Translations under genes and position numbers: made by a program
Notes under the pieces: model-generated
Database searches by the model: none
Told to the model about the DNA's origin: nothing
Seen by the model: only the letters and a program-made list of their open reading frames with translations
Part shown: positions 1 through 27,903 of the stretch, piece after piece
Position numbering within the stretch: the first letter of the stretch is position 1
Layout of the letters: each line of letters opens with the position of its first letter
Source: Sugiyamaella lignohabitans
Lineage: Eukaryota > Ascomycota > Dipodascomycetes > Dipodascales > Trichomonascaceae
Reading direction: 5' to 3'
DNA: 64,000 bases
Assembly (NCBI RefSeq): GCF_001640025.1
Contig: NC_031672.1
Location: forward strand, 3,782,001 to 3,846,000

Positions 1-503
1 TGCTGTTGTAGCGACACCCTGCCATTTCTGGCCATACTGGCATTCCGCGAGATAGCGTTTCCGGCACTAGTCTGCCTGCCGGGCTTTTCTTTACTGTCAT
101 TGTAGATAGAAACCTTCTCCACCAGCACGTTCTTGGCATCGAGCTGCCGTGGCTGTCTATTAATATTGGTCAGCGTCTGCAGAGCAGTCCGCTTCCTCGA
201 ATTATTCTTCCCTACAGCGGTCACGGCGGCGGCCGCCGCCAGCCCCTTACTATTGGCCATCAAAGTAGGGGCATTTTCGTCGTTGGTTCGCGACACGACC
301 TGTCCTGTTAGCCACTAGACTCGGGTGCCCTGCTGCCTCCGGCAGCTGGGGCTCCGCCCCAGACCCTGGTTGCTCCTGCTTCGCAGGAGTTGGCCGGGGC
401 CGTCGACGCAACGACTCGAGCGAAGCGAGAGGAGCAACCAGGGTCTGGGGCGGAGCCCCAGCCGCCGGAGGCACTCCCCCCGTCAGGTACTTACTCCGTC
501 CAT
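1..503 (-). CDS. Partial gene with destruction box, probable B-type cyclin (5' part only)
   Basis: A minus-strand reading frame is open from 299 to the window edge, so no ORF with a stop exists. It encodes an NDEN motif, then an Ala-rich stretch, then RTALQTLTN, which exactly fits the RxxLxxxxN destruction box recognised by the APC/C ubiquitin ligase. B-type cyclins of fungi have this N-terminal layout (NDEN, basic linker, D-box); the cyclin box itself would lie beyond the edge. I place exon 1 at 503-495 (ATG GAC GGA) followed by GTAAGT, and the acceptor at 300 after CTAACAGGACAG, giving phase-0 joining and a 195-nt intron. The intron is mostly one GC foldback element (334-473). An in-frame ATG at 258 is an alternative start. 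A coding frame is well supported; the cyclin identity rests only on the N-terminal motifs, and another APC/C substrate such as a securin is possible. Confidence 0.6.
334..473 (+). repeat. GC foldback element, complete (A-spacer-B), inside an intron
   Basis: Two GC-rich arms in inverted orientation. The left arm begins TGCCTCCGGCAGCTGGGGC and ends in the A hairpin (TGCTTCGCA). A spacer containing CCGTCGACGCAACGA follows. The right arm begins CTCGAGCGAAGCGAG (B hairpin) and ends GCCGCCGGAGGCA. The element lies wholly inside the intron of the partial cyclin-like gene. Confidence 0.95.
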
Positions 504-1642
504 TGTATGATCAGACTGTTAGTGGTGAAGTGAATGAGGCTCCATGCAAAACCAGAGTCGCTTGGCGAGTGGTGTGTGAGTGTGTTTTGGATGGCGGCTA
601 ACACAGTGGGATTGTGGCAGCGTATTTGGGTATGTTTGTTGTGGTGTTTCACTGTCCGTTTCAGTGCAGAAAGTCTGTTGAACAAGGTTATTTGCCGTGA
701 CTTGTTGCAACCAGTGGATAAGCGAGTGTTTAGGGGTCAAAAAGGCTCGCCAGCAGCAGGAACCGTGTGTTTTGATGTGTAATATTTGAAATTTCAATGA
801 ATGTAAGGAGTGAAAGGAATGATTAGTAGAGTTAGTTGGATTTTTTTGGTTGTGTTAAAAAAAAAGAGCGTTGTGAGAACAAGAAAAATTCAAACCCCAA
901 TAGTAATGGTACCTAGAGGCAGAAATGATAATTTCCGTTGGCTAACAAACCGTAAAGCGGCTTGTTTTTTGTATTTATACAGAATCGAGGAATGGGACCA
1001 AATGCGGCAATGGGTACACAAAAAAATAACGAAAATCGGTTACTGCAGTTTGAGCTGCTGGTGCATGCACCTGCTATTGGCATTCCCACCAGCATATTTG
1101 CCGCCAATCGCTGCGTCAACAACAAACAGAGAATGTATATCTGCTGCCAGAGAAGCGGCAATGAATGCGGACATCAACGGTCGGAATGGTCTCTGTATGA
1201 GCTCGTACCAGCTGGTTTGTGGTTTTCTTTCTTGCTGCTGTTGGTGCTGCTGTAGCTGCTGCTGTGCAATAGATCTGGCCTGAATCTGAGCCAATTCTGT
1301 TTTAGTACGAATTAATATTCGGTCAATTATTCTATGATAATTCCTGCAATAGCTGTAACTGCTGCATTTTGTATATCAATCAGCTTGTCAGTCACTGCCG
1401 CTTGCTACATGTCCAGTCAACCTCTGTCCAATACGAAGTTACATGATTAAAATATAATGAAATAACCAATAACCAATATCCACAACTAACTTCCTCGTGT
1501 GCTTTCACGGCGGCCGTTCTGCCTGCCTCTCTACACACATCTGCCTCATAACCGAGCGCTATGACCACTCGCCAGACCCCTCACCCGATCACCTGTGATC
1601 CACTTCAGGCGTGTTTGTTTAGATCACTAGCTGGGGGGTGCA
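504..1642. other. Upstream region of the cyclin-like gene, no firm gene
   Basis: No recognisable gene. It would contain the promoter of the minus-strand gene starting at 503. A minus frame at 1294-1040 (84 residues, Gln-rich N-terminus, then a stretch with SWYELIQRPFRPLMSAFIAASL) is preceded by TACTAAAACAG, which resembles a branch site plus acceptor. It could be an exon of a small split gene, but I found no convincing partner exon and no family match. Confidence 0.3.
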
Positions 1643-1780
1643 GCCTCCGGCGGCTGGGGCTCCGCCCCAGACCCCGCGGCTCCTCTCGCTTCGCTCGAGT
1701 CGTTTTCCGCCACGATCCCAGCCAACTCCTGCGAAGCAGGAGCAACCAGGGTCTGGGGCGGAGCCCCAGCCGCCGGAGGC
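1643..1780 (-). repeat. GC foldback element, complete (B-spacer-A orientation)
   Basis: The left arm ends in the B hairpin (TCTCGCTTCGCTCGAG). The spacer reads TCGTTTTCCGCCACGATC and continues CCAGCCAA. The right arm starts with the A hairpin (CTCCTGCGAAGCAGGAG). Flanking bases extend the inverted symmetry slightly (GGGGTGC outside both ends). Confidence 0.95.
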
Positions 1781-2737
1781 AGCACCCCAGCCAAGTCGCC
1801 AGGGCGGACTGCCTTCATTGTTGAGCGCATCTCGCGTGAGCTGGTGCATTTTTGGAGGCCCTTTTTGGTGTGGTGTGGTTGGTGAAGCCCGATTGTTATT
1901 GCCTGTTAGGTTGTGTTCTGACAACCGCTGTCTGACATGCGTGCCGGTCTGTACATTCTTGATCGGCCGGTGGAGATGCATGCTGTCTCGCCAGTAACCC
2001 ATTCTGCGAGCATGTTTTTCCGGTCTGAGCGCCTCAATTGGCAGTCGTGGTACGTGCCTCGGCATCTGCCCATTGTTTCGCTCATTGTTCGACGCTCCAG
2101 AGTGGCTTTGTAGACGTTTTAATACTCGTCAGTCGTTCCTGCTTCTGATTCTTCAGCGTCCTCATCTGTCTCAAACTACCTAATTCAGTTATCAGTTGGT
2201 GACTCGTGACCCTGTTTTCGAGCTGGTGATTTATGTTGTCACGGTTCGTTCGTTGCCAACCAAGCAGTTCAGCCGTTTAGCTTCTGGTCTCCTGTGTCGT
2301 AGACTGGAGAAGAGCTCGCCGGTTGCTGCCAAGTAAACTCGAGCTCATTCCTGCTCGAAATTAGACTTCATTTAGCCGTTTAATCGGACCAGGATCGTGC
2401 ATACTGACGCACGGGCCTGTGCACCATTCCTGCACACCCATCGCTTAGTAACGCCGGCAACTGGTGCTCCCAACCCCATCACGGCTAGTACTTTTTCAGG
2501 GGAAAAGACCCGAGCTCAGGGGGAGCTCCAAAAACTGACCTCGACCTCGCCATCCAACACCCACTACCAACTTTTCTCACCCACACTTCTACCACTCCCA
2601 TCTACCACAACCGACCCACGGCCGTTCACCACACCCCATTCCTGCCGCCGATCGGTGCGACACTTCCCCTGACAACCGTGTGGGGTCGCATCTCGCAGCT
2701 GTACTTCCCCTGAATTACTCCAGGGGGGCCCGGCACT
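1781..2737. other. Intergenic stretch, no gene seen
   Basis: Short open frames on both strands have no recognisable composition or family motif. I see no RNA gene or element here. Confidence 0.5.
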
Positions 2738-2875
2738 TGCCTCCGGCGGCTGGGGCTCCGCCCCAGACCCCGTGGCTCCTGCTTCGCAGGAGTTGGCTGG
2801 GACCGTCGGTGGAACGACTCGAGCGTAGCGAGAGGAGCAGCGGGGTCTGGGGCGAAGCCCCAGCCGCCGGAGGCA
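2738..2875 (+). repeat. GC foldback element, complete (A-spacer-B)
   Basis: A-arm first, spacer TTGGCTGGGACCGTCGG, then a B-arm with one change in its hairpin (CTCGAGCGTAGCGAG). The outermost arm bases are canonical. Confidence 0.95.
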
Positions 2876-3656
2876 GAGGCCCGGAACCCAGATCGGTGTT
2901 GGTGGCCGATGAAAAGTGGTCCCTGTTGCAGCGGCCGACTTGGCGGGTGGAGTGTAGATTGCTGGTGAGGACCGGAATGAGCGTCGTGTGGTGGGACGGG
3001 AGGAGGAGCGCGCTAGCGGGGTGTCGAGTCGTTGGCGGAGAGGTAGGTGAGAGGCGGTCAGGAGGAGACATGAGCGTCTGGGGGTGTGGAGTTTGTGAGG
3101 GATGTTAGCTGAAAGGTCGTTGTTTGGGTGTTTGAGGTGTTATTGGGGGGTAATGGATGGTGGTGGTGGTGGTTTATAGGGGCTATGGCGCGATCGATTT
3201 GAGAGATAAGAAGCAGGTCGATCTATCTGCTGGAGTCGGCGAGGTGGACGTCGATAAGCAACGTGCGAGGTGCGAGGACGGGGAAAATGGACAATGGATC
3301 GGTTCCAGTGCAGATATTATTGTTAGTCGGTAGGTTGGATGGCGTGTTTGGGGGTCCCACGTCGCAATTGCATCGCCCGGTCTAAAACCATCGACTGTTG
3401 GGTCGAGTTATGAGGGTGTGGATTGAGCAGGTAACTAAACTAATCGCCCTTCGTGCCGTGCTCAACAATGTATTAATTAATCAACGGAACTAGGATGAAA
3501 TGAGGACGTATGCACACATGGCTATGAGCAGCGTTTGATGCGTTCTTCGTTGAACGGTGCATCCATATCTCACCCTAGTGTGATAATTCTAGCTCCTCTC
3601 GACTAGAATGAACTGGCCGGCGCATATAAGCGGAATAAGCATATCGTCAGCATGCT

Positions 3657-3700
3657 ATAAGCATGCCATAAGCATGTTCTAAGCATGCCATAAGCGTGCC
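3657..3700 (+). repeat. Four-unit 11-bp tandem repeat (ATAAGCATGCC)
   Basis: Four contiguous 11-bp units close to ATAAGCATGCC, each with a central GCATG(C), so each unit has a small palindrome at one-helical-turn spacing. Imperfect related copies lie just upstream (3635-3656). Confidence 0.9.
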
Positions 3701-3791
3701 TGGAGCACCCGTATATAGTGTTTACAATGGATTGGAGAACCCGGTTCTTTGACCAGTCCTTATCGAGAAAGAGGAACTTGACTGCAGCTCT

Positions 3792-3824
3792 TCAGGGATA
3801 GCTCAGGGATAGCTCAGGGATAGA
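3792..3824 (+). repeat. Three-unit 11-bp tandem repeat (TCAGGGATAGC)
   Basis: Three tandem copies of TCAGGGATAGC, the last one clipped. The period is the same as in the array 90 bp upstream but the sequence is different. Confidence 0.9.
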
Positions 3825-4999
3825 TGAGGTAGGGGTCCAATGCTAGCTTGATAGATCTAATTACCCCTTGTTCGTCGTCCAGATTGGTAGATAAGAAGCA
3901 GGCGGCAGTTAACTTAGTTACAACGAACTTGATAAGGACGGCCAATATAGTTACTTGTTCCTGTTTAGTATTAGTTAGCAGCATTTCACCATTTCGTTCA
4001 GTGATACGAGTGGTTAACCGTAAGTCAAGGTTCGCCACTAGAAACCAGTTAGTCTATTGAGTACCGAGTATCCTTTTTGTGGCACACGATTCTCAAGTGA
4101 ACTTTATTTTATTCAAGTGACTAAGTCTTTTTTCGATATCAGCCGTCGTTAGCTCGTTTTTATCAGTAACCACATCTCATCTAAAGCCCTGATGCAGCTG
4201 TTGTAAAAGAGATGGGTCTGATAAGGACAGGCAAGATCAGACAAGGTCTGTTAAACAAAGGTCAAACAAAGGATTTGAGAATCCCAACACATATTATATA
4301 GTTAATTTTAGTGGAGCCGAAATTCTGGATTTCTGGATTTCAGTTTGCCACTCTATTGTGAGAGTGAATGGTCAACGGTAAACGGTGTTTATCTCATTCC
4401 AACCTAGTCCCCTGTGGCGGTGTCCGATAACGATTGTGGCGGAGGATCGGAGGCCGTTTTATGTCTAACCAGAACCAGGAATAGAGGTGAACATCCATGT
4501 GGCGCCATGCCTGGATGTGGCGGTGCTGCTTTTCACGGATCAAGAGCTGAAGATGCCTTTGTGTTGAGAATACCTCGACCGATTCATGTTAGTGACCAGC
4601 TAAGTATTTGAAATTTTCTTTCTAGCCAACTTTCATGAAGTCTGTTCAAGATTGGCCGCTGCAGCCTGCGATTGGTGCGCAGACGACCAGGTACATCATC
4701 GCCGGTTGTCGTTAGGCATATGATTCTTTTCGGTGAAAAAAATGAATTATTCAATTGATTATAATTGGTTAGTGGGTATTCTTCGACAGAAATGAACATT
4801 CCTTTATCTTTCGACTCGCGTTGGTATACGGGTGCAAAACAGATGGGATATTGCAGCGATTATCGTCAAAAGCGGATTCTGTTCTACCAAAAGAGAAAAC
4901 CAACAAACGCTAGAATCACATTCCAGCAACTCTAGAACCAATCAATCTAACTACTCTCAGCAGAAAAACCTACCATTTTCCGCGACCCCCGACGCGCCG

Positions 5000-5059
5000 A
5001 CTCGAGCGCAGCGAGAGGAGCCACGGGGTCTGGGGGCAGAGCCCTAGCCGCCGGAGGCA
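5000..5059 (-). repeat. GC foldback half-element (B arm only)
   Basis: A lone right-hand arm: CTCGAGCGCAGCGAG, then GGGGTCTGGGGGCAGAGCCC and a canonical GCCGCCGGAGGCA end. Part of a spacer (GACGCGCCGA) precedes it; the other arm is missing. The arm carries point changes (CCCTAG for CCCCAG). Confidence 0.9.
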
Positions 5060-5278: not shown

Positions 5279-5333
5279 CTCCTGCGAAGCAGGAGCTACG
5301 GGGTCTGGGGCAGAGCCCCAGCCGCCGGAGGCA
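5279..5333 (-). repeat. GC foldback half-element (A arm)
   Basis: Right-hand arm with the A hairpin (CTCCTGCGAAGCAGGAG) and canonical end. No facing arm within 200 bp upstream. Confidence 0.9.
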
Positions 5334-5537
5334 GACCCCCCTCGAACACGGCCCTGGCCAGTTGACCTCGATCAGTGGTGCGGTAAGCTGCTGCACATCA
5401 AGAGCTGATCGGCCGCATCAAGCAGGGTCAGATGCAGTGGGTCACGGAGCCGGCGGCACGCCGACTAGTGCCGGTTTGCCGGTGCATTGCAGCGACCTGC
5501 AAGGTCCAACGGCCGTGGCAGGGAGGAGGCCACGGCG

Positions 5538-5593
5538 TGCCTCCGGCGGCTGGGGCTCCGCCCCAGACCCTGGTTGCTCCCGCTTCGCGGGAG
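5538..5593 (+). repeat. GC foldback half-element (A-like arm)
   Basis: Left-hand arm whose hairpin carries a compensating pair of changes (CTCCCGCTTCGCGGGAG instead of CTCCTGCTTCGCAGGAG), so the stem is kept. No partner arm follows directly. Confidence 0.9.
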
Positions 5594-6013
5594 AGGGTGG
5601 GCGGGCCAGCAAACGGAAGGGGTACTGGTGGGGGAAAGGGAGAGAGAGAGAGGGGGAGGTGTGAGTTCAGGTGGGGGTGTGGTTAGTCGGCCAGCAGGTG
5701 TGGATCGGGTCGGGATGCCGGTGACAACTGCGACCGATCAGTCGTTCGGTCTTTCGTTAGTTCGTTTCAGGTGGGGTGGATGGATGGGTGTTGGCGGAGA
5801 GCCAAATGTGGGGTACCCCACCATCGGACCAGTGGGGCCCGAGCCCGACTGCCAAACGAGGAAAGCCCTTCTCCACAGTCATCTGGCCACAGTCCAACCG
5901 ACTCCAGACTTCTTACAGTCGGAGTTGTCTGCGTGTGACCACGATAACTCCCACCCCGGCTTTTCCCATTCACGATCCTCTCGGGTCCCCGAATCGGACT
6001 CTGGGGGCCATCC

Positions 6014-6153
6014 TGCCTCCGGCGGCTGGGGCTCTGCCCCAGACCCCATGGCTCCTCTCGCTCCGCTCGAGTCGGTTCCGTACACGATCCCTGCCAACTC
6101 CTGCGAAGCAGGAGCAACCAGGGTCTGGGGCGGAGCCCCAGCCGCCGGAGGCA
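6014..6153 (-). repeat. GC foldback element, complete (B-spacer-A orientation)
   Basis: B-arm (CTCGCTCCGCTCGAG), spacer TCGGTTCCGTACACGATC, then the A-arm (CTCCTGCGAAGCAGGAG). Both ends are canonical. Confidence 0.95.
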
Positions 6154-6768: not shown

Positions 6769-7189
6769 GCCTCCGGCGGCTGGGGCTCCGCCCCAGACCC
6801 TGGTTGCTCCTCTCGCTTCGCTCGAGTCGGGCGTGGCGAAGGTGGGTTGAATACGGATGGGCAGACGGACGTGCTGCGGCGGTGCTGCTGCGGAAGCTTG
6901 GCCCATGCTTCGTATGCTGAGGTACCTGCAGGGCCCATCATTCTCAGAAGCACCGAAACAAACTCCAGGGCTAGGGCCGTATTTAAACATCGACTGACAG
7001 CATCCGCCCGCATCCGCCCACCGACCGACCGACCAGTGTCAACAACACCCACAACGCCCACCCGCAACCCAACCCAAACCAACAGAGCCAATTCCTACAA
7101 ACAAAGCGCCCCTCCCCTCCCCACGCCCGACTCGAGCGAAGCGAGAGGAGCAACCAGGGTCTGGGGCGGAGCCCCAGCCGCCGGAGGCA
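6769..7189. repeat. Long foldback pair (B...B) with ~280-bp interior
   Basis: The left arm (6769-6843) and right arm (7121-7189) are both of the B type. Their pairing continues inward past the hairpin: CGAGTCGGGCGTGG on the left faces CCACGCCCGACTCG on the right. The interior is unrelated sequence with no convincing gene. Unlike the compact copies, both hairpins are the same type. Confidence 0.9.
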
Positions 7190-7701: not shown

Positions 7702-8611
7702 GGGGGGTGGGGTGTGCCTCCGGCGGCTGGGCTCCGCTCAGACCTGGTTGTGCTCGCTTCGCGAGCGGGTGGGGGGGGAGTCAGTAGAGGGTGGGAGGGT
7801 CAGAGAGTTGGGTCGGAGTTGAGAGTTGGAGCGGAAATTGATAAAATTGGAGGAGGGCGAGGCAGGTGACGGAGATGTTGGGTCGTAGTCCGCGCAGAGG
7901 GAGGTTAAGTCCGGTTTGTCAGCTCGGAAATGACTCGATTGTCGTTGGTCAGCAGTTAAGTGCGATAGCAGTGCAGCGGATATGCGCTGATGAGCAGCCA
8001 AGCGCATCTCCGCTGCACCACCAAATTTCGAAACCTGGTCCGCTCGAGTTGCTCGGGCTGGCACCCAGTGTCGCGCTGGAGTTGTTCGCTGCCCGGACCT
8101 GTTTGTCTGCTTGGATGGGGTTGGTGCGTATTAGTCAGAGGTGAGTGGGAGATCAGCCGGCGTTAAGGTTTATTGACAAAATGAGCCACACCGCAGGGTC
8201 ACTCACAGGCTGGCAGGCTGGCTGACACACCAATCAACCAGCAGCGGCCTGGCTGACACACCAAGCGACTAGCGTCCTGCCTAACCTAGCGAGCGACCTA
8301 ACGGGCCAACGAGCCTAATGTAATGAGTAATGAGCTTATGATTACTCACATGCACAGATAAACAAATAAACAACCCAAGCAAGCCCAAGTCCAAGCCCAA
8401 GCCCGAAAGCAAGCACAAAGGCATCGCGCTAACAACGGGCCCAGGCCACCAGCCCGAATGGTCGATGCATACGAGCACAACGGCCCCCCCTAATACAAGC
8501 CAAGCCGGCCGAAACGAGGTGCAAACGAGCCCCAAACGAGGGTTATCGAGGTCAGATGCGACCAGGCCAGCCAAGCCAAGACTGAGCAGAAAAAGTGATA
8601 GACAAGAGAAC

Positions 8612-8652
<41 letters not shown>

Positions 8653-8916
8653 CGGCAGTAGCATCGCAGGGGCACCAGCAGGAGCATTAGCAAGAGCATT
8701 AACAGGAGCGGGCCAAGTAAGCAAACGGTGCATCCAACCCAGACCAAGCCAAGCCGACTGACAAGGCCAACCGAATTCCATTACCACAGCACCTTACACA
8801 ACCACGCCAGCCAAGCCCTACCAGTCCCCAAACCAACCCGCAACCCCCATCGCTCGCGAAGCGAGCACAACCAGGTCTGGGCGGAGCCCAGCCGCCGGAG
8901 GCACATCCCACCCCCC
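7702..8916. repeat. Composite structure: matched variant inverted arms flanking ~1.1 kb
   Basis: Left arm 7702-7772 and right arm 8851-8916 share changes not seen in any other copy: GGCTGGGCTCCGC (one G short) and TTGTGCTCGCTTCGCGAGCG in place of the usual A or B hairpin. The inverted match extends outside the arms (GGGGGGTGGG). The interior contains an 11-unit AGC microsatellite (8618-8650). A 108-codon minus frame (8064-7738) runs into the left arm and is probably not a gene. Confidence 0.85.
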
Positions 8917-10955: not shown

Positions 10956-11118
10956 GCCTCCGGCGGCTGGGGCTCTGCCCCAGACCCCGTGGCTCCTCTC
11001 GCTTCGCTCGAGTCGGCCGTCGGGTCCCCCCTGGAACTTGGGGTTTCCCTTGTGAATCGACTCGAGCGAAGCGAGAGGAGCCACGGGGTCTGGGGCAGAG
11101 CCCCAGCCGCCGGAGGCA
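10956..11118. repeat. GC foldback pair (B-B) 3' of the acidic protein gene
   Basis: Both arms carry the B hairpin and are near-perfect mirror images. The spacer is about 50 bp and unlike the standard one. It lies about 190 bp past the stop of the upstream gene. Confidence 0.95.
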
Positions 11119-11388: not shown

Positions 11389-11533
11389 TGCCTCCGGCGG
11401 CTGGGGCTCCGCCCCAGACCCTAGTTGCTCCTGCTTCGCAGGAGTCGACGGGGGCCGTGGTGAACAGTGGCTGCACCCGATCCGACACGGATCTCCTGCG
11501 AAGCAAGGAGCAACCAGGGTCTGGGGCAGCAAC
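11389..11533 (+). repeat. GC foldback element with truncated right arm
   Basis: Canonical A-type left arm. The facing right arm (from 11493, CTCCTGCGAAGCAAGGAG) stops after GGGTCTGGGGCAGC, losing the terminal half. Confidence 0.9.
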
Positions 11534-11748: not shown

Positions 11749-11819
11749 CACGGTCCTAGCCATCTCCTGCGAAGCAGGAGCAACCAGGATCTGGGGCGGA
11801 GCCCCAGCCGCCGGAGGCA
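11749..11819 (-). repeat. GC foldback half-element with retained spacer (A arm)
   Basis: Right-hand A arm (CTCCTGCGAAGCAGGAG) preceded by a spacer remnant, CACGGTCCTAGCCAT. The B arm is missing; the break lies in the spacer. Confidence 0.9.
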
Positions 11820-11974: not shown

Positions 11975-12028
11975 TGCCTCCGGCGGCTGGGGCGCTGCCC
12001 CAGACCCCGTAGCTCGCTTCGCTCGATA
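11975..12028 (+). repeat. GC foldback half-element (shortened B-type arm)
   Basis: Left-hand arm with canonical start, GGCGCTGCCCCAG core and a shortened hairpin (AGCTCGCTTCGCTCGA). No partner follows. Confidence 0.9.
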
Positions 12029-12399: not shown

Positions 12400-12538
12400 T
12401 GCCTCCGGCGGCTGGGGCTGCGCCCCAGACCCCGCGGCTCCTCTCGCTTCGCTCGAGTCGTTTCGCGACGGTCCCGAGCAAACTCCTGCGAAGCAGGAGC
12501 AACCAGGGTCTGGGGCGGAGCCCCAGCCGCCGGAGGCA
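12400..12538 (-). repeat. GC foldback element, complete (B-spacer-A orientation)
   Basis: B-arm, spacer TCGTTTCGCGACGGTCCC, A-arm; both ends canonical. Confidence 0.95.
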
Positions 12539-12828: not shown

Positions 12829-12900
12829 TGCCTCCGGCGGCTGGGGCTCCGCCCCAGACCCTGGTGGCTCCTGCTTCGCAGGAGATGGCGGGGACCGTGG
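12829..12900 (+). repeat. GC foldback half-element with retained spacer (A arm)
   Basis: A-type left arm followed by ATGGCGGGGACCGTGG, i.e. most of the spacer, then unrelated sequence. The B arm is absent. Confidence 0.9.
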
Positions 12901-13478: not shown

Positions 13479-13537
13479 GGGTGGGTATGCCTCCAGGGGC
13501 TGGGGCTCCGCCCCAGCCCCTGGAGGCATACCCACCC
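13479..13537. repeat. Perfect 28-bp-stem palindrome related to the GC arms
   Basis: A 59-nt perfect hairpin: 28-nt arms beginning GGGTGGGTATGCCTCC and a 3-nt TCC loop. It shares the CTGGGGC-TCC-GCCCCAG core of the foldback arms, but the flanks (CCAGGGG / CCCCTGG) differ. CTCCTGCGAAG just upstream is a remnant of an A hairpin. Confidence 0.95.
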
Positions 13538-13791: not shown

Positions 13792-13862
13792 TGCCTCCGG
13801 CGGCTGGGGCTCCGCCCCAGACCCTGGTTGCTCCTGCTTCGCAGGAGTTGGCGGCGACCGTG
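13792..13862 (+). repeat. GC foldback half-element in the REB1 5' flank
   Basis: A-type left arm plus spacer start (TTGGCGGCGACCGTGAG), then loss of the B arm. It ends about 25 bp before the REB1 ATG, so it probably lies in the 5' UTR or core promoter. Confidence 0.9.
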
Positions 13863-13887
13863 AGATCGAGAGATGGGGTGTTAACGG

Positions 13888-16137
13888 ATGGGTTTAGATC
13901 AGAAAATGAATGCGATTCGGAAGGCCTCGAGGTGGGCTTTTAGTGAGAAGAATGGAGAGGATGGTGATCCTGGTTCGCCGGGTGGAAATGGTAATGGCAG
14001 CGAGAAACAGTTAGGTGTCGAGGGATCGGGTCCTGCCGAGTCGGGGGTCGACGAACCGGCTGCTAAAGCGCTTCTCGCGTTGGGTGACGCGAAAGACGAG
14101 GAGGAAAAGAAGAATAATAAGTCGAAAAAGACAAGATCCAGGAAAAGAGCTTCTAAACAGGACAGCGAAAAGTCTCCTGTTGAGAATGAGAATATTTTGA
14201 ATGCCGGTCATGAGGCAATTGCTGTTGCTGCTGCTACTTCCGCTACTTCTGGTTCTGCTGCGAATGCTGAAAACAGCGTGGATAACCATCGAGAACCTGA
14301 TTTTGGCAGCGTTGGCGATGTTATACAGTTTGTGGGCTCGTTATCGCCAAATGCCAATAGCGGTAACAAGAAACGTAAACTGAATAATAACGCGTCAACT
14401 GCGTTCGATAACGGCGATATCTCGGGCTTTGAGTCGAATTGGGGTACTTATCTCAACGACGACATGGCTGACGGGTCGTCTCAGGCTCATAATGAGGATT
14501 ACATGTTCATTCAGCCTCAACAGATCCAGCAACAACAGCACCAACACCAGCAACAGCAGCAGCAGCATCAGCATCAGCAGCATCAACAACAGAACTCACA
14601 ACAACAGCTCCAACAGAATCACCATGCTCAGAATCATCAACAACAACAACAGCAGCAACAACAACGTCAACAGCAACAACAACAGCAACAGCAGCAGTCC
14701 CAGCAACAGCAGGAGGAACCGTCTCAAGATCAGAAGAAGAAGAGAAAGGGTAAGAAACGAGCTCTTAATGTTGACCCTGCTCTGGCTCATTTGGACGATA
14801 CTGGTCCAGGCCAGAATGAACATTTTAAAGAACAGCAGCTCGTGGAACAGGCCATGTTAGAAGCCCATGCTATTGCTACTGAGTTAGAATCGTCGGAGAC
14901 AACCTCCGGTGCTGCTGCCTCGAGCATTGTTAACGGTGCGGGCGCTGGTTCCGATGCTTCTGCTGTAGCTACTGCCGCTGCTTTAGCAGCTGCTGCTGCC
15001 ACTGCTCAGCAGTTACAACTCGATCACCAGCGTCATCTCCATCATAAGTATCTTCATTCTCCGGGAGGAGTCGTGGCTAGTCAGCAGCAGCAACACCAGA
15101 CAACCCAACAACCTCGTAGAAAACGGCCCCATGATTCACAACAACACCGTCATGAAGACTTGGTCGACCAGGAACTTCAAGACTCTATTAAAAATAATTG
15201 GGCATTGCTGGCTGATGGACAGGATGTCAAAGAACGAGGTGGTTCGTTCACAAAAGAAGAAGCTGCTCAACTTGACAGGTTTATGGAACATTATATGGCT
15301 GCCAAGGGGTTGACTCGAGATGAAGTTTGTAGCCGAGTATGGTCGAGCCAGCGGAAAAAGGATAATTTCTGGGGTCTCGTGTCGTCTGTCTTGCCCTATC
15401 GAACCCGGTCAAGTGTATATAAACACGTACGACGAGCATACCATGTGTTCAATGCTCGTGGTAAATGGGACAAGGAAACAGATGCCCAGTTGGCTGCACT
15501 TGTAAATGAGCGAGGTGCTCAATGGAAGGCTATTGGTCTGAGTCTTGGAAGAATGCCCGAAGACTGTCGAGACAGATGGAGAAACTATCTCAAATGTGGT
15601 GATCAACGAAACCAGAACAAATGGACTATTACCGAAGAGAACAAGCTCAAAGAGATTGTTATGACAATTCTCAGCGACAACCCTGCTGCTGACATCAACT
15701 GGACAGTTGTCAGTGACCGCATGGGAGGTTCACGATCCCGCATCCAATGCCGATATAAATGGACCAAGATCCACAAGAATATGAATGCCACTCTTGTAGA
15801 CTCGATGCCCAATGCTGACAAGAAAGTGTTTTTGGAGTTGTTGAAACACTATGCCAACGAGCAGCAAATCAACTGGGAAACGGTGGCCGTCATTGAAGGC
15901 AAGGGCATCTTCTCGGCCAAAGACTTCGCTACCATCTACACCCGTCTCAAACTCAAATACTTTGGCACCGAAACTCCCAACAAAGATTATATCGACGCCA
16001 TCACCGAACTCATCGACTTCCTCGACAAAGAAGACGTGCCAAACAAACCTCTCTCCCTACCACCAACCACCGACGAGCCCCAAAACGCGCCAAAACCCGT
16101 CCTACACGCCACCACTACCCCTGTTCCTGCTAGATAA
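13888..16137 (+). CDS. REB1: Reb1-type Myb DNA-binding protein
   Basis: 749 residues. The C-terminal half has the Reb1/TTF-I architecture: a Myb-like region with FTKEEAAQLDRFMEHY (about 450-515), a Myb repeat starting KWDKETDAQLAALV (~525-570, ending DRWRNYLK) and a second starting KWTITEENKLKEIV (~577-630, with CRYKWTKIHK). The N-terminal half is disordered, with Lys-rich clusters and a long polyglutamine/His tract (~211-276). In yeasts Reb1 is an essential general regulatory factor that binds TTACCCG, excludes nucleosomes and terminates Pol I transcription. A consensus site lies upstream of the nearby RPS11. A repeat half-element sits just before the ATG and another starts 21 bp after the stop. 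Orthology is clear from the DNA-binding region; the N-terminus is poorly conserved in this family. Confidence 0.92.
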   Translation: MGLDQKMNAIRKASRWAFSEKNGEDGDPGSPGGNGNGSEKQLGVEGSGPAESGVDEPAAKALLALGDAKDEEEKKNNKSKKTRSRKRASKQDSEKSPVENENILNAGHEAIAVAAATSATSGSAANAENSVDNHREPDFGSVGDVIQFVGSLSPNANSGNKKRKLNNNASTAFDNGDISGFESNWGTYLNDDMADGSSQAHNEDYMFIQPQQIQQQQHQHQQQQQQHQHQQHQQQNSQQQLQQNHHAQNHQQQQQQQQQRQQQQQQQQQQSQQQQEEPSQDQKKKRKGKKRALNVDPALAHLDDTGPGQNEHFKEQQLVEQAMLEAHAIATELESSETTSGAAASSIVNGAGAGSDASAVATAAALAAAAATAQQLQLDHQRHLHHKYLHSPGGVVASQQQQHQTTQQPRRKRPHDSQQHRHEDLVDQELQDSIKNNWALLADGQDVKERGGSFTKEEAAQLDRFMEHYMAAKGLTRDEVCSRVWSSQRKKDNFWGLVSSVLPYRTRSSVYKHVRRAYHVFNARGKWDKETDAQLAALVNERGAQWKAIGLSLGRMPEDCRDRWRNYLKCGDQRNQNKWTITEENKLKEIVMTILSDNPAADINWTVVSDRMGGSRSRIQCRYKWTKIHKNMNATLVDSMPNADKKVFLELLKHYANEQQINWETVAVIEGKGIFSAKDFATIYTRLKLKYFGTETPNKDYIDAITELIDFLDKEDVPNKPLSLPPTTDEPQNAPKPVLHATTTPVPAR
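14510..14716 (+). repeat. CAA/CAG repeat coding polyglutamine in REB1
   Basis: An interrupted run of CAA, CAG and CAT codons encoding Gln with scattered His. The codon mixing indicates an old, stabilised tract. Confidence 0.9.
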
Positions 16138-16157
16138 TCTCTCCTTGTGGCCCTCGT

Positions 16158-16330
16158 GCCTCCGGCGGCTGGGGCTGCGCCCCAGACCCCGCTGCTCCTC
16201 TCGCTTCGCTCGAGTCGGCCTGATATATCTCTCTCTTAGCTAATTAATTCGCTTTGTGCCTCCGGCGGCTGGGGCTGCGCCCCAGACCCCACTGCTCCTC
16301 TCGCTCCGCTAGAGTCGTGCGTCGACGGTC
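16158..16330 (+). repeat. Two directly repeated B half-elements 3' of REB1
   Basis: Left-hand B arms at 16158-16217 and 16257-16315, offset by 99 bp and in the same orientation, both with the GGCTGCGCCCCAG variant core. The second keeps spacer sequence (GTGCGTCGACGGTCACTG). They start 21 bp after the REB1 stop. Confidence 0.92.
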
Positions 16331-16480: not shown

Positions 16481-16577
16481 GCAGCGCCCCAGCCGCCGGA
16501 GGGAGTCCGAATCCTGGAGTTATCTCCTGCGAAGCAGGAGCCACGGGGTCTGGGGCAGCGCCCCAGCCGCCGGAGGC
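16481..16577 (-). repeat. Truncated arm plus A half-element 3' of RPS11
   Basis: A short arm remnant (GCGCCCCAGCCGCCGGAGG, 16481-16504), then a right-hand A arm (16522-16577). They face the two arms at 16158-16315 in inverted orientation, between the convergent 3' ends of REB1 and RPS11. Confidence 0.9.
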
Positions 16578-17925: not shown

Positions 17926-18213
17926 GCCTCCGGCGGCTGGGGCTCTGCCCCAGACCCCGTGGCTCCTCTCGCTTCGCTCGAGTCGGGCGTCCACGGTCCC
18001 AGCAGCTCGGGGAGGGTGTTTGTTTGGGGGATCCTGTGTGTTCTGACAGTAAATTACGGATATATATTCACTAATGATAACTAACTTTATTGGCTTAAGT
18101 GAAGAAGACGGGAGTGAGAGGAAGGCGATATCGCCGAGAGCTATTGGCGGGAGACCCCCGAGCACGACTCGAGCGCAGCGGGGTCTGGGGCGGAGCCCCA
18201 GCCGCCGGAGGCA
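17926..18213. repeat. Separated B arms upstream of RPS11
   Basis: The left B arm (17926-17988) keeps a spacer tail (GCGTCCACGGTCCCAGC, to 18005). About 160 bp later a right-hand B arm (18168-18213) follows, with an internal deletion joining CTCGAGCGCAGCG directly to GGGTCTGGGG. Confidence 0.9.
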
Positions 18214-19772: not shown

Positions 19773-19932
19773 TGCCTCCGGCGGCTGGGGCTCCGCCCCA
19801 GACCCTGGTTGCTCCTGCTTCGCAGGAGATTACGGGGAAACCGAAACAGAGAGCAGCGGGACGAGACGCAACGACTCGAGCGAAGCGAGAGGAGCCACGG
19901 GGTCTGGGGCGGAGCCCCAGCCGCCGGAGGCA
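19773..19932 (+). repeat. GC foldback element, complete (A-spacer-B, long spacer)
   Basis: Canonical A and B arms separated by an enlarged spacer that still ends GACGCAACGA before the B hairpin. Confidence 0.95.
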
Positions 19933-22422: not shown

Positions 22423-22590
22423 TGCCTCCGGCGGCTGGGGCTCCGCCCCAGACCCTGGTTGCTCCTCTCGCTTCGCTCGAGTCGTTGCGTCGACGGTGCC
22501 AGCAGCCCCTACGAAGGACCTCCAACCCCGAAAACCTCCTGCGAAGCAGGAGCCACGGGGTCTGGGGCGGAGCCCCAGCCGCCGGAGGCA
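22423..22590 (-). repeat. GC foldback element between convergent stops (B-spacer-A)
   Basis: Canonical B and A arms with an enlarged spacer containing TCGTTGCGTCGACGGTGCC. It lies 217 bp after the KH gene stop and 46 bp before the end of the minus-strand regulator gene. Confidence 0.95.
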
Positions 22591-22635
22591 GCGACAACCA
22601 CGGAAGAGTCAGTATAAATATTCAGTACATTCCAG

Positions 22636-24609
22636 TTAGATGTCGTCGGCAAGGCCGTGGGGGCCCGTGGTAAAGGCGATGTCGGGTCGCGAGAGGAAGG
22701 GCGTGTCGAATTGGTTTTGGTCGCCGTTGAGAGCGAGGTCTTCTTGCATGACCTGGCGGATGGCGCATTTGGTGAGCTGGCGGCGTTGGGTCTCGATGAC
22801 GCTGATGATTTGCCGCAGCTCGTTCATGTCTTTTTTGGACCGTTTTTTGCCGGTGCGGCCTTCTTCCCGGTTGCGTTCTACGTCGTGTTGTGCTTGGTGA
22901 AGAAACCATGAAGCGTAGTTGTTGCTGGGTCCGGTCGAGCTGTTGACGTTCTGCCACGATTGACACTGGTCGCAGAACCCAATCAACATCCCCGAACCTT
23001 CTTTTTTGTCGGGTCGTTCGCTCATAATAAACGGCAGAGCGTATCGCTGCTTTGTACACGAACGAATGCCGTGGGCAGATTTCATATGGTGGAGATAATT
23101 GCATTGGTCGCGTTTATGCCAGCTTTTACAGCATCCGCAATAACATTCGCGATCTCGTCCCTCGCCAGATCGGTGGTAAAAAGAGTCGTATTGGTTGTTC
23201 GACATGTCAGGGTCGTCTTGTCGGGCATGTGTGATTTGTTGGCCGGGGATCATTTGTGGCATCGACTTGAACTCGGCAAGATCAAAACTGTACCTCTGTT
23301 CAGGTCGAAGGTCTTTCATATGAAACCATTTGTTAAATGGAATGTATCCCAAAGGGTAGCTCACTTCAGCAGGATCCCACGCTTTAAGAAACGGTTTTTT
23401 CTTCTTGATTTTATTATGATTCTTCTGATACCGAGACTTCGTGACCCCGGGAGACTCGTTCATTGCCAAACTATCAATACTACCACAATCACTGACCCGG
23501 TCTCCAGGTCGCAAAACGGCAACAAATAAAGCGGGATATTGACACTCTCGCACCCGGGCCCAAACTGGGCTATATGACGAGTTGCGATGGGTCGTCATCT
23601 GGTAGTCTGTGGGTAACCAGCGGTGTTCAGTAATGTTTTTGAATCCTCTAGATAAATTAATAATATCCGTCTGCTCTCTTAGATTATCAACGGTCTTGAT
23701 TCCAGCTATTGATGCTATCTCGTTTTCAATACAAACTCCTTCTTCCTTCATCATTTGGGCTACTGCGTTACTAGACTCACAGTTGCCGTCAGTGGGACCA
23801 CAGATATAGCTACCGGCGCTATTACATTCAGGATCAGTCGTGCTTAGAATCACCTGGTTACAATCTACCGAGGGATCATATTTGTTGAAAACCCCTTTGG
23901 CAGTTTCCAGCAGGTCATCTACTGATGTTGTTGATGAAGGGAGTTCGGCGAGCGTGGGGAAGGCTCGAAATGTCACATTATTAAGAGGCGATGTTGCTGG
24001 TACAATCCGAGTAGACAGTTTGCCTTTATCCATCAAAGGAGTAGAAATCTCGTCACACTCGCTCGAATCCGAGCCTCCTTTATCCGATTCAAGCTCGATC
24101 TTCAACAATTTACTAATATAATTCTCATCTTTAAGAGGGGCAGACCCAGCCGCCCGTTTGTCTCCGTCCCCGTCCCCGTCTCCATCTCCATCTCCATCTC
24201 CATCTCCGTCTCCTCGTCTATCAATACCCACAATATCCACATTCATCATATCAGGATACGAGCCTGAAATAGTATTAATATCAAACGAGGCCATGGTGCC
24301 AAAATCCCAGTCTGAGCTGTCACCATGCTGTAATTTAAACATATCGTCCATCGACTGGTAAGCGTATGAACCCTGGTATCCAGCAGTATTACTATTAGCA
24401 CCTACAGTCTTTGCATCGTCTTTGACCAGCAAATGGACCTGGCCAAGATCAAACTTGGGAACACTATTATCATCTTCTAGTCGAGAAGAACTGGGGCCGG
24501 TAGAAAATTCCGTGCCAGACGTATCATCACGAAGCTCCTCCCAGTCAGTTATCCACTGGTCGCCACACTCGAATATATCCATGTCGACCGGTTGATGTTG
24601 GCAATACAT
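22636..24609 (-). CDS. Zinc-binding transcription regulator, Rua1 C-terminal domain type
   Basis: 657 residues. The C-terminal region (~370-610) has a Trp/Tyr-rich segment (SYSPVWARVRECQYPALF) followed by a Cys/His module (YCGCCKSWHKRDQCNYLHHM, then HGI) and a second CxxC pair (FCDQCQSWQNV). This resembles the fungal Rua1 C-terminal family (formerly DUF4451), named for a Ustilago regulator; I base this on the motif pattern. The N-terminal half is acidic and disordered, with a (Gly-Asp)n run at ~130-149 encoded by a GA-rich hexanucleotide repeat. A basic KKRSKKDMNELR segment near the C-terminus may be a nuclear signal. Met1 and Met11 are both possible starts. A nuclear DNA-binding regulator is inferred; its targets are unknown. 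Confidence 0.75.
   Translation of the reverse strand: MYCQHQPVDMDIFECGDQWITDWEELRDDTSGTEFSTGPSSSRLEDDNSVPKFDLGQVHLLVKDDAKTVGANSNTAGYQGSYAYQSMDDMFKLQHGDSSDWDFGTMASFDINTISGSYPDMMNVDIVGIDRRGDGDGDGDGDGDGDGDGDKRAAGSAPLKDENYISKLLKIELESDKGGSDSSECDEISTPLMDKGKLSTRIVPATSPLNNVTFRAFPTLAELPSSTTSVDDLLETAKGVFNKYDPSVDCNQVILSTTDPECNSAGSYICGPTDGNCESSNAVAQMMKEEGVCIENEIASIAGIKTVDNLREQTDIINLSRGFKNITEHRWLPTDYQMTTHRNSSYSPVWARVRECQYPALFVAVLRPGDRVSDCGSIDSLAMNESPGVTKSRYQKNHNKIKKKKPFLKAWDPAEVSYPLGYIPFNKWFHMKDLRPEQRYSFDLAEFKSMPQMIPGQQITHARQDDPDMSNNQYDSFYHRSGEGRDRECYCGCCKSWHKRDQCNYLHHMKSAHGIRSCTKQRYALPFIMSERPDKKEGSGMLIGFCDQCQSWQNVNSSTGPSNNYASWFLHQAQHDVERNREEGRTGKKRSKKDMNELRQIISVIETQRRQLTKCAIRQVMQEDLALNGDQNQFDTPFLSRPDIAFTTGPHGLADDI
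24163..24219. repeat. Hexanucleotide repeat coding (Gly-Asp)n
   Basis: About nine units of CC(C/A)TCT/CCCCGT type on the plus strand inside the regulator gene, encoding alternating Gly and Asp. Likely to vary in length between strains. Confidence 0.85.
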
Positions 24610-25398
24610 AATTTCACTTTGCCTTTTTGTTCGCTTCGCTAGCTAACAACCGACAACCAGAGAATGGTCAAAGGACAGCGAGTTACTTAAGTAAGTCATA
24701 CTTTCTGATCGCACCACTTGTCCGCTTACAAAGACATACCCCATAACAAGTTGTCGAGGATTATGGAACCATCCCACACATGTGAGATCTCGGCTCCCTA
24801 CGCGTTATGGTACTTCTGAGATGGAGATTAGGTAGCATAGACCGGTCTGCCTGACCGTCCTCAGCTCTGCCTTCCACCTCTGAAAACTCGAAAATTCCCA
24901 CTCAAAAGTCTCACAAAAACCACACTCCCATTACCAGAACACAGAACACAGAACACAGAAAAAACAGAACTCAGAACTCATTCTTGCTGACAAAGTTCTG
25001 TATCAGCCTCTCCCGAGTGTAGGAACCAGTTGCAGTAACTGCTGCTCGACGAGGCTCGTCTGTCTCCTCTTCTCACACACTCTCACTTCTGACGTCCGCG
25101 ATCATAATCGCAAAACCGATGCTGTGAGCATGTCCCCATCCAGGACATCCACACTCACACACACACACACAGCCACCGGAGGAGCCTGCCATAAACAGCC
25201 GGCAAACTTATGCGCCGCAATTTCGGTTGCCATATTCGTCCTGATCCGAGTTGTCGGATAATTAGGTTGACTGCAGCTGATTCCCACGATAGTCAGGGCA
25301 CACCCGCATCCTCATGCACTACCCGTGCATTATCTCGATAAGGGCAAGGGCATCTCACCCGAGACCCGTGCTCAGGGGGTGGAGTGAACGGGATCTGG
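24610..25398. other. Upstream region of the regulator gene
   Basis: No gene recognised. Contains three tandem AGAACAC units (24936-24956) and a CA microsatellite near 25152-25171. Confidence 0.45.
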
Positions 25399-25502
25399 TG
25401 CCTCCGGCGGCTGGGGAGTTCACTGGGACCCGCGCCCGAAACGACTCGAGCGAAGCGAGAGGAGCCACGGGGTCTGGGGCAGAGCCCCAGCCGCCGGAGG
25501 CA
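25399..25502 (+). repeat. GC foldback element with internally deleted A arm
   Basis: The left arm stops after GCCTCCGGCGGCTGGGG. Spacer-like sequence (CTGGGACCCGCGCCCGAAA) and a full B-type right arm ending at 25502 follow. Confidence 0.9.
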
Positions 25503-25525
25503 GTCGGGGGGGGGGGGGTGGATCG

Positions 25526-25585
25526 TGCCTCCGGCGGCTGGGGCTCTGCCCCAGACCCCGTGGCTCCTCTCGCTTCGCTCGAGTA
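25526..25585 (+). repeat. GC foldback half-element (B arm)
   Basis: A left-hand B arm directly after a 13-G homopolymer (25504-25518), which joins it back-to-back to the preceding right arm. A small remnant (GGGGTCTGGGGCAGC) follows at 25628. Confidence 0.9.
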
Positions 25586-26366
25586 GTTTACGAGAAGCCC
25601 TTGCCGGAGGGTTCGGCGTGAGCATAGCGGGGTCTGGGGCAGCGGGGGTATGCCAGGTTCTTCCTGGTTCCATCGGAAGCGATGCATATGCAGCAACTGA
25701 AAGGAAAAAATAAGGGTCCTCAACAAGCAGGCAGCTGTTCCTGACAGAGAGACACCGACGACCAATCGCAGCAAGTGGTGCGTGGGGGGTGAAAGTTAAT
25801 TTCGACGCTTCGGGTTTGACCTGCTTTTATATTGTAATTGACTAAGAGTTAGGTAATCGCGGTCAGGGTAAATGACGGCATGTCCGGGCTCAATTGTGGA
25901 TAGCACGAGCAGACTAAGGACGTCGTTGTTGTTGGCAATTCCAGCTCGGTTGTTGGTTTGTGTTTAGTACAATTGAAAAGAACAGGATAAAAGATGAGGG
26001 TCCCGTGTCATCAGAAGCACGCAGAAACTCCGCTGCGTCCCGTTTGTAAACGCGGGCGGCACGAATTGTCCCGTAACCGGCGTAGGGCCAGGTGCTTATT
26101 TATCCATCGGACCACTTAGTTCCGATTCAGGCACCAGGCGCGGACGACTGTGCCGCGCTTGGCTGGCCCTGACTGGCTGCTTCGGATGCCCATGCACCGG
26201 GACCTGCTGAAATTTGGGGTTAGGTCTGGTTCCCGGGTAGTCTGGTAAGGTACCCCTGGCTGCTAGCCAGCCAAGCCAGGCCGGCCTGCTGGGGTGAGCA
26301 GGTGCGGGTGGGCTGCTGCCGGGTTTGCTGGGGTGCTGCTGCTGGTACTGGTGGTGGTCGATTGTT
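25586..26366. other. Upstream region of TAL1
   Basis: No gene recognised. Sequence becomes G/C-rich with GCTGG/CCAGC motifs before the TAL1 TATA box. Confidence 0.4.
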
Positions 26367-26376
26367 TATATATAAA
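26367..26376 (+). promoter_or_regulatory. TATA box of TAL1
   Basis: TATATATAAA, 119 bp before the TAL1 ATG, followed by a CT-rich tract (26405-26430), the usual layout of a strongly expressed yeast promoter. Confidence 0.7.
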
Positions 26377-26485
26377 GGCCCGGAACCCCACAAAGGGACG
26401 CATCTTCTTCTTCTCTTCTTCTGTTTCTTTGGTCAATTTTTTTCACTTTAACCAGCCATTGAAAAAAGTCACACACACCTTAACA

Positions 26486-27680
26486 ATGTCTTCCAACTCT
26501 TTAGAATACTTAAAGGCCACTGGCACTGTTGTCGTCACCGACACCGGTGAATTCGAATGTGAGTATTTTTCAAGGTGTGGGGGGTTGTGCCTCCGGCGGC
26601 TGGGGCTTCGCCCCAGACCCTGTGGCTCCTGCTTCGCAGGAGTTTTTGGCTCTAGCGACCATCGACGCAACCGACTCGAGCGAAGCGAGAGGAGCCACGG
26701 GGTCTGGGGCAGAGCCCCAGCCGCCGGAGGCAGTGGTCAACTGGAGCAATTGCCCGAGCCAGTAACTAACAGAGCGTTAAGCCATTGCCAAGTACAAGCC
26801 TCAAGACGCCACTACCAACCCTTCGTTGATTTTGGCTGCTGCTAAGAAGCCCGCTTACGCTGCTTTGATTGAGAAGGCTGTTGAGGCTGCTAAGAGCAAG
26901 GGCTCTTCTCCTGCCGAGAAGGCCAGTGCTGCTTTGGACATTCTTCTTGTTGAGTTTGGTACCGAGATTCTTAAGATTGTTCCTGGCCGTGTTTCCACCG
27001 AGGTCGATGCTCGTCTTTCTTTCGATAAGGAGGCTACTATTAAGAAGGCTTTGGAGCTCATTGACTTGTACAAGTCCAAGGGTATTTCCAAGGATCGTGT
27101 TTTGATCAAGATCGCTTCTACTTGGGAGGGTATCCAAGCTGCTCGTGAGCTCGAGGCCAAGCACGGAATCCACGTCAACTTGACTTTGTTGTTCTCGTTT
27201 GTGCAAGCCGTTGCTGCCGCCGAGGCCAATGCCACTCTTATCTCCCCCTTCGTTGGCCGTATCTTGGATTGGTACAAGGCTTCGACCGGAAAGACCTACG
27301 AGTCTTCTGAGGACCCCGGTGTCCACTCTGTTAAGGGTATCTACAACTACTACAAGAAGTTCGGTTACAAGACCATTGTCATGGGTGCTTCTTTCAGAAA
27401 CACTGGTGAGATCAAGGAGCTTGCCGGTGTTGATTTCTTGACCATCTCGCCCAGTTTGCTCGAGGAGTTGTACAACTCGACCGAGGCTCTTCCCAAGAAG
27501 CTCGACGCCGCCTCGGCCTCGTCGCTTGACCTGCAAAAGGTCTCGTACGTTGACGACGAGCCCAGCTTCCGTTTCCTGCTCAACGAGGACCAAATGGCCA
27601 CCGAAAAGTTGTCCGACGGTATCCGCAAGTTCTCTGCCGACTGCGTCACTCTCCTCAAGCTCTTGGAATCCAAGTTCTAA
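26486..27680 (+). CDS. TAL1: Transaldolase, split gene
   Basis: Exon 1 is 26486-26558 ([20 protein letters not shown] then GEFE) and exon 2 is 26782-27680, joined within a Ser codon; the product has 323 residues against 335 in S. cerevisiae. Transaldolase transfers a dihydroxyacetone unit between sugar phosphates in the non-oxidative pentose phosphate pathway, in the cytosol. Signatures include [28 protein letters not shown], the Schiff-base lysine region [16 protein letters not shown] (Lys ~134), [14 protein letters not shown] and [16 protein letters not shown]. The 223-nt intron has a GTGAGT donor, a TAACTAAC branch site and a TTAAG acceptor, and is mostly one foldback element. Codon bias is strong, as expected for high expression. 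Near-certain. Confidence 0.97.
26588..26732 (+). repeat. GC foldback element inside the TAL1 intron (A-spacer-B)
   Basis: A complete element with both arms, filling 145 of the 223 intron bases. Its spacer includes CGACCATCGACGCAACCGA. Confidence 0.97.
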
Positions 27681-27766
27681 GTAATTTATCGCTCTTTACT
27701 GTAATGACCGTGGTGTAAAAATCAATTCTTTAATTTCCTTTCCTGGATCGTTGACGGGTGGGTTCC

Positions 27767-27903
27767 TGCCTCCGGCGGCTGGGGCGTTGCCCCAGACCCC
27801 TTTGCTCCTGCTTCGCAGGAGTTAATGGGACCCGAGACGGAAACGACTCGAGCGGAGCGAGAGGAGCCACGGGGTCTGGGGCGGAGCCCCAGCCGCCGGA
27901 GGC
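27767..27903 (+). repeat. GC foldback element 3' of TAL1, last copy in the window
   Basis: A compact canonical element (A arm, spacer TTAATGGGACCCGAGACGG, B arm), 86 bp past the TAL1 stop. No recognisable copy occurs to its right. Confidence 0.96.

Follow-up and report, generated by a model that had tools for sequence, protein, structure and literature searches.

Foldback (FB) transposons and miniature inverted-repeat transposable elements (MITEs) carry inverted arms around a variable middle and show target-site duplication, and Helitrons insert between A and T without duplication. Bacterial REPIN and BIME repeats are high-copy extragenic palindromic modules that occur as inverted doublets, singlets and clusters, with conserved ends, a less conserved spacer and compensatory changes (PMC3116915, in excerpt, which here and below marks a source drawn on in part), and heterodimer rules are known among bacterial repetitive extragenic palindromic (REP) sequences (PMC3733652, in excerpt). 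Mitochondrial GC clusters (e.g., GC42) are short GC-rich palindromes that multiply, merge and shuffle, and for which functional constraint has been claimed (PMC4478555, in excerpt). Here we describe a family of short, GC-rich hairpin arms in the yeast Sugiyamaella lignohabitans, traced from a 64,000-nucleotide stretch of contig 1 (NC_031672.1, bases 3,782,001-3,846,000; hereafter the window) in which an earlier note had picked out nine foldback copies. We regard it as an even bet that this is a high-copy family of short-hairpin modules in a fungal nucleus, working like the bacterial REP/REPIN repeats.

The likeness to REPINs lies in inverted doublets of a short palindrome that are extragenic and present in high copy, with conserved ends, less conserved spacers and compensatory changes. 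The yeast family differs in its fungal nuclear setting, in having two or three hairpins per arm, in its ends (T/GCCTCC and GGAGGC/A, the slash marking the outer end), which lack the REPIN terminal tag GTAG or CGTC, and in a pairing rule that depends on spacer length. It shares inverted terminal arms around a middle with FB elements and MITEs, but its arms are built of short hairpins and no target-site duplication was found in 60 pairs. Unlike the mitochondrial GC clusters it resides on nuclear contigs and is without AG or ACT flanking direct repeats. The T on the left and A on the right reverse the A/T order of Helitrons, and both bases may belong to the element.

All yeast counts come from a single assembly of one strain, comprising 15,932,016 bases (15.93 Mb) in four contigs. 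Detailed arm statistics derive from a 316-kb genome sample, partly picked for dense or unusual places, which yielded 260 candidate arms, 247 once 13 false ones (the other strand of the head) were excluded; loop and stem counts on 200 arms refer to those of the 260 candidates that fit the search expression. The open reading frames (ORFs) of the window give Pfam matches to a Reb1-type Myb protein, a Rua1-type regulator, KH and BTB proteins and a transaldolase, and this set, together with the intron in the transaldolase gene, identifies the host as fungal. The contigs carrying the family span 2.3-5.9 Mb, with nuclear genes within the window, and are therefore nuclear and not mitochondrial DNA. 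No description of such a hairpin-pair family appeared among the literature matches listed, including the excerpted PMC3116915, PMC3733652, PMC4478555 and PMC13155455. In the window no Rfam family reached its gathering threshold; miRNA-precursor models matched the foldback weakly, far under the cut-off.

An exact 32-base arm core occurs 3,146 times genome-wide (1,543 + 1,603), or about once per 5 kb on average, and its reversed control not at all, which bears out the earlier note's view that these are not random GC palindromes. Its nine copies are a small part of the family. The module is an arm of 55-60 bp with a constant head (T)GCCTCCGGCGG, a middle hairpin CTGGGGC-NNN-GCCCCAG, ACCC with a short linker, and an inner hairpin of class A (CTCCTGC-TTC-GCAGGAG), B (CTCTCGC-TNC-GCTCGAG) or C (GCTCGC-TTC-GCGAGC). 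Read from the outer end it can also be divided into T, GCCTCCGGCGGC, the hairpin TGGGGC-NNN-GCCCCA, GACC, a linker of two main types and the inner hairpin. Exact arms number 1,678 for A and 1,445 for B, the latter counted with loop TTC only. The middle hairpin described in the earlier note is present in every arm of its nine copies, although its loop is not always TCC as had been stated. In DNA folding the head either forms a third small hairpin or pairs with the linker. Class C, a third arm class seen at 7716-8902 of the window and in further copies, includes arms with a shorter CCGGGC/GCCCGG middle hairpin and GGACAT outer flanks. Arms occur as inverted pairs, singly or in tandem, and arrays in which identical or nearly identical arms or pairs follow one another in tandem lie at bases 2345024-2345392 of contig 1 (155 bp spacing) and in two further sampled stretches, L030 (about 1374-1586, 97 bp) and L013 (about 4162-4322, 105 bp).

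The stems of these hairpins are nearly invariant. Over 205 A and B arms the mismatch rate is 1.3% at the 29 non-loop core positions vs. 12.8% in the middle loop, and 170 of 211 arms are unchanged at all 29. Stem changes are partly compensated: the middle stem reads CGGGC/GCCCG in five of 200 arms and TGGGC/GCCCA in one, with no mixed forms, while the A stem carries three compensated and three uncompensated changes among 75. In the B loop the centre base is altered in 43 of 107 arms and its two neighbours in none and two, respectively; a link of this base to linker type was not clear (p = 0.10). Read on the other strand, the loops are of GNA form in 162 of 200 middle hairpins, 105 of 107 B hairpins, all 75 A hairpins and all 18 labeled C. 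Loops vary chiefly at the positions that a GNA triloop leaves free. DNA mini-hairpins that close a GNA loop on a G-C stem are noted for their high stability (PMC4686876, in excerpt). Folded as single-stranded DNA, two A arms gave z scores of -2.6 to -3.5 and two B arms -1.2 to -2.7. Outside the arms, GNA triloop hairpins show no excess (6 of 39, three of which were overlooked parts of arms).

The earlier note had inferred a strict rule, in which one arm always ends in A and the other in B, and took this asymmetry as the mark of a defined mobile or recombining unit. The rule holds in all nine of its copies, but is it a rule of assembly? Pairs were counted genome-wide from exact 17-base hairpins in two spacer classes. 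With spacers of 10-40 bp, 391 of 397 pairs are A-B (190 + 201 by orientation), four are A-A and two B-B. With spacers of 41-71 bp, A-B pairs are just 29 of 76, next to seven A-A and 40 B-B (Fisher odds ratio 106, p = 7e-38), and this wide-spacer split is compatible with arms pairing at random, given 41 A and 82 B among the solo arms sampled (chi-square p = 0.36). Spacers of like-armed pairs begin at 38 bp, except two at 21 bp, so that the 10-37 bp range contains two such pairs, whereas the rate at 41-71 bp predicts 42 there. A recombining unit that needs both unlike ends, like the left and right ends of a transposon, would suit the 391 close A-B pairs, but the rule is gone beyond a 40-bp spacer, solo arms are common, and wide pairs, like-armed ones included, share linker types as true pairs would; we think this first proposal very improbable. 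What stands of it is a defined, dispersed foldback family with thousands of copies, constant ends, both orientations and no target-site duplication; the strict asymmetry does not, as most wide pairs depart from it and many arms stand singly.

In an A-B pair the unlike inner hairpins separate the matching outer arms by about 50-60 bp, so nearly all forms share a long non-matching centre. Published constructs show that in yeast, breakage at inverted repeats drops as the spacer rises from 5 to 12 bp (PMC8053094, in excerpt), and that a 12-bp spacer stalled replication forks in E. coli, yeast and primate cells while a 52-bp spacer often did so in E. coli only (review PMC7999016, in excerpt). We infer that the strict-looking A/B rule arose from loss of short-centred palindromes together with descent from an A-B ancestor. 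The common close pairs would then descend from that ancestor and the rule would not be one of assembly; close like-armed pairs would have been lost as near-perfect palindromes with a short centre, and above a centre of about 40 bp any arm combination would survive.

A contribution of common descent follows from the likeness of the spacers to one consensus: among 100 listed on contig 1, 63 of 97 typed spacers exceed 99% of shuffles when compared with it, and 14 reach 18 of 22. The spacers have nevertheless diverged, with a median alignment score of 14 of 22 (97 of the 100 listed), whereas the search itself required exact identity at the 34 hairpin bases beside them. The conserved spacer of about 25 bp in the earlier note is in fact 22-51 bp long in the nine copies, and its centre lies within one mismatch of GGGACCGTCG in four of them. 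Palindrome content of the spacers is in slight excess (3.73 vs. 3.47), and T-runs and A-runs at the spacer ends do not covary (r = -0.01). Where half would match at random, both arms have the same linker type in 32 of 42 pairs with a close spacing and in 15 of 17 wide ones, and neighbours that stand back to back share it in 27 of 47; this agreement marks wide pairs, too, as units. Wide solo pairs show no class preference (17 of 30 like-class, 15.4 expected). In the one wide pair tested, the DNA at 7790-8840, between the C-C arms of 7716-8902, is single-copy in the genome and therefore not repeated cargo; the arms flank resident DNA.

Within the window, the nine copies were confirmed to within 0-1 bp of the positions first given, five in A-to-B and four in B-to-A order as claimed, with lengths of 136-166 bp against the 137-168 bp reported. 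A search with the 18-base arm start (up to three substitutions) found 23 left and 20 right matches, a few of them fragments or a related hairpin. All lie before base 27910, and the following 36 kb contain none. Already here the A/B rule has exceptions, as solo arms and B-B, truncated A-A and C-C pairs are present. The features are as follows, with strand given where one was assigned.

335..472, forward strand: inverted pair A to B, spacer 22 bp
1643..1780, reverse strand: inverted pair B to A, spacer 23 bp
2739..2874, forward strand: inverted pair A to B, spacer 22 bp; its arms were folded as DNA
5001..5058, reverse strand: solo B arm, right orientation
5279..5332, reverse strand: solo A arm, right orientation
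5539..5593, forward strand: solo A arm with compensatory stem change CTCCCGC-TTC-GCGGGAG
6015..6152, reverse strand: inverted pair B to A, spacer 23 bp
6769..7188: wide pair of two B arms, the left at 6769-6826 and the right at 7131-7188, with other DNA between
7716..8902: wide class C pair (GCTCGC-TTC-GCGAGC), same variant in both arms, spanning 1,187 bp
10956..11117: homotypic B-B pair
11390..11527: homotypic A-A pair, right arm truncated
11764..11818, reverse strand: solo A arm
11976..12027, forward strand: solo B-like arm, inner hairpin shortened
12401..12537, reverse strand: inverted pair B to A, spacer 22 bp
12830..12884, forward strand: solo A arm
13480..13536: small related hairpin (head and middle hairpin only) adjoining a truncated A hairpin
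13793..13847, forward strand: solo A arm
16158..16214, forward strand: solo B arm, first of two in direct orientation
16258..16314, forward strand: solo B arm, second of two in direct orientation
16486..16503, reverse strand: arm fragment, head and part of middle hairpin
16524..16577, reverse strand: solo A arm
17926..18212: wide B..B pair, internal deletion in right arm
19774..19931, forward strand: inverted pair A to B, spacer 43 bp
22424..22589, reverse strand: inverted pair B to A, spacer 51 bp
25400..25501: pair whose left arm is truncated and whose right B arm is intact
25527..25640: left B arm with truncated right arm
26589..26731, forward strand: inverted pair A to B, spacer 29 bp, within the transaldolase intron 26559-26781
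27768..27903, forward strand: inverted pair A to B, spacer 22 bp

Joining the transaldolase exons across intron 26559-26781 leaves an open frame of 323 residues. The structure at 13480-13536 is a small perfect hairpin, GCCTCCAGGGGCTGGGGC-TCC-GCCCCAGCCCCTGGAGGC, with flanks GGTGGGTAT and ATACCCACC, set directly against the truncated A hairpin, and is possibly a nested insertion of a minimal relative. The gene for the Reb1-type Myb-domain protein, at 13888-16137, has solo arms on both sides, which is probably a coincidence. From 27910 to 64000 the window has about 38-46% GC and many long ORFs, while the first 28 kb are mostly higher in GC.

Outside the arms, the flanks have a common character. 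Among 219 outer flanks, T stands at position -1 in 93%, preceded by a degenerate G-rich pattern, GGGGnnGGGGT[CG]T, which is alike at paired and solo arms. In agreement with the earlier note, no target-site duplication stands out: across 60 pairs and 16 offset combinations there is one 5-bp match and none of 6 or 8 bp, with shorter matches near chance. Arms avoid genes: six of the 247 lie in ORFs of 300 or more amino acids, which cover 44%. Arm density tracks the GC content of the masked surroundings (Spearman rho 0.81, 62 bins) and drops with rising ORF cover (rho -0.46). Functional cis elements (terminators, insulators, origins or chromatin structures) under selection at fixed sites could show this intergenic bias, as well as near-invariant stems with compensatory changes. 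Their density, however, would not be expected to be so uneven, with all 43 arm-start matches of the window in its first 28 kb and the remaining 36 kb empty of them, nor to follow local GC and fall with ORF cover as it does, and we consider such elements improbable.

Further sources of the flank pattern were considered and rejected. A palindromic target behind G-rich left and C-rich right flanks gave same-pair vs. different-pair agreement of 5.35 vs. 4.90 (standard deviation 0.22), and a gapped score of 3.43 vs. 2.96 (standard deviation 1.86; mean rank 0.53), little above flanks from different pairs. Pairing of a flank GGGGTCT with the arm-internal AGACCCC as a guide was dropped, as TGT equals TCT at positions -3 to -1 (37 each of 200) and arms of the CCGGGC type are without matching flanks. 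Telomere repeats were not recognized by eye in four contig ends. These ends (L034, L035, L037 and L040) carry similar series of AT-rich hairpins, also with a TTC loop (e.g., CATTTTGC-TTC-GCAAAATG); judged by sequence, this is a second, subtelomeric hairpin family with other stems. A search for repeated DNA around masked arms in the 316-kb sample gave 20 rows, which we put down to local tandem repeats, a pair of related genes and pieces of arms.

The main rival holds that there is no dedicated transposition and that arms spread through break repair, template switching and ectopic gene conversion among self-complementary copies, which would also homogenise the stems and make tandem and inverted duplicates. 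Linker types cluster on contig 1, where 70 of 99 neighbours among the first 100 exact A arms listed are alike vs. 51.5 expected, which suggests that spread or homogenisation acts locally. Some tandem arms read as carrying duplicated half-spacers, three identical pairs stand 155 bp apart at base 2345024 of contig 1, stems are alike while spacers differ, and the wide C-C pair tested has its arms around resident single-copy DNA. On the other hand, a constant outer end next to a G-rich pattern speaks for defined insertion ends, and pure stem correction predicts equal variation of all three loop bases, whereas B loops vary only at the middle one. On balance we judge repair alone to be unlikely, at perhaps one chance in a few.

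Repeats with a common core occur in bacteria. Four contigs of a prokaryote collection, three from Desulfovibrionaceae and one from Acetobacteraceae, contain an exact match to the arm core at its 28 fixed letters; expected chance matches are 0.0009 on a naive count, and as many as 1.5 with the second hairpin half counted free, so that the four matches alone are weak. The likeness is made convincing by structure. One Solidesulfovibrio contig (L041) has three copies with different stems, two of them unselected and with different 9-bp stems (rough expectation 6e-6), and another contig (L043) bears two inverted copies separated by a 40-bp spacer, which by eye lie between two genes. The module common to yeast and bacteria is GCCTCCGGCGG-hairpin-ACCC, one copy reading AATCCC; the bacterial repeats differ from the yeast family in having no A, B or C inner hairpins. 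Transfer, common origin or convergence may each account for the likeness. The same Solidesulfovibrio contig has a c-di-GMP-I riboswitch at 5536-5620.

Viral contigs gave no exact core match; six matches to a looser pattern, two with a hairpin right behind the head, were taken as chance against five for a reversed-head control. Plasmids matched neither the whole element nor the bacterial pair, and short-query matches in plasmids and phages were partial or diverged. The plasmid pBbsII (NZ_CP134051.1), which has Rep_1 and Zot-domain genes, carries a similar hairpin (92% identity): TGCCTCCGGCGGC-hairpin-AACCCC at 2501-2537, near rep, and about 130 bp further on a stretch, CTCGCTACGCTC, like the yeast B hairpin. 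This suggests that origins of single-strand replicons are worth a look.

The constant ends, hairpin conservation and absence of duplication are what make the yeast family resemble single-strand mobile hairpins such as REPINs. On the reading we favour, each new copy would come from single-stranded DNA whose arm has folded up; the folded arm would be handled by a putative trans-acting enzyme and inserted, with no duplication of the target, at short G-rich stretches of GC-rich intergenic DNA. We say that it works like a REPIN system and do not call it one, because neither a Y1 transposase nor a terminal tag was found and pairs are no better conserved than singlets.

Several observations weigh against this reading. 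The Y1 transposase model (PF01797, RAYT type) found nothing in the yeast genome, with a positive control in 5 of 14 genomes; the Helitron model (PF14214) was likewise silent, as it was in all 14 control genomes, and the transposase searches covered these two models. Contrary to the REPIN prediction, pairs are not better conserved than singlets: 80% of 94 close A-B arms are exact vs. 81% of 47 solo arms (p = 0.95). Middle loops depart from GNA in 38 of 200 arms, and those of the bacterial module are, unlike the yeast loops, not generally GNA. The middle loop is TCC in 96 of 102 arms with a 7-base linker vs. 39 of 98 of the rest (non-TCC in six and 59, respectively), and as its variants are confined almost wholly to one linker class, part of the loop variation looks like subfamily structure. 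DNA folding energies make neither strand clearly better, and B arms fold less clearly than A arms. Linker types agree in 18 of 24 same-orientation neighbours, as for tandem duplicates, and the apparent palindrome loss could partly be a sequencing or assembly effect. Movement itself is inferred from the sequence of a single genome.

REPIN-like hairpin populations are known from bacteria, and thousands of such structured modules in the nucleus of a eukaryote would make up a new class of eukaryotic repeat. A bolder form of the favoured reading is that a bacterial-type GCCTCCGGCGG-hairpin-ACCC repeat entered or arose in the yeast nucleus and multiplied to thousands as a eukaryotic REPIN system, moving as folded single-stranded DNA with GNA mini-hairpins recognized by an enzyme, short G-rich insertion sites and palindrome instability sorting the arm pairs; we put it forward tentatively, with more doubt than belief. 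Whether the core common to the yeast and bacterial repeats goes back to transfer, to common origin or to convergence on a single design of single-strand hairpin is a question that can be tested. The family is also a natural experiment on palindromes: the switch in pair type near a 40-bp centre, bracketed by the published constructs with 12-bp and 52-bp spacers (review PMC7999016, in excerpt), may serve to measure in vivo, across hundreds of loci, which inverted repeats are retained by a eukaryotic genome.

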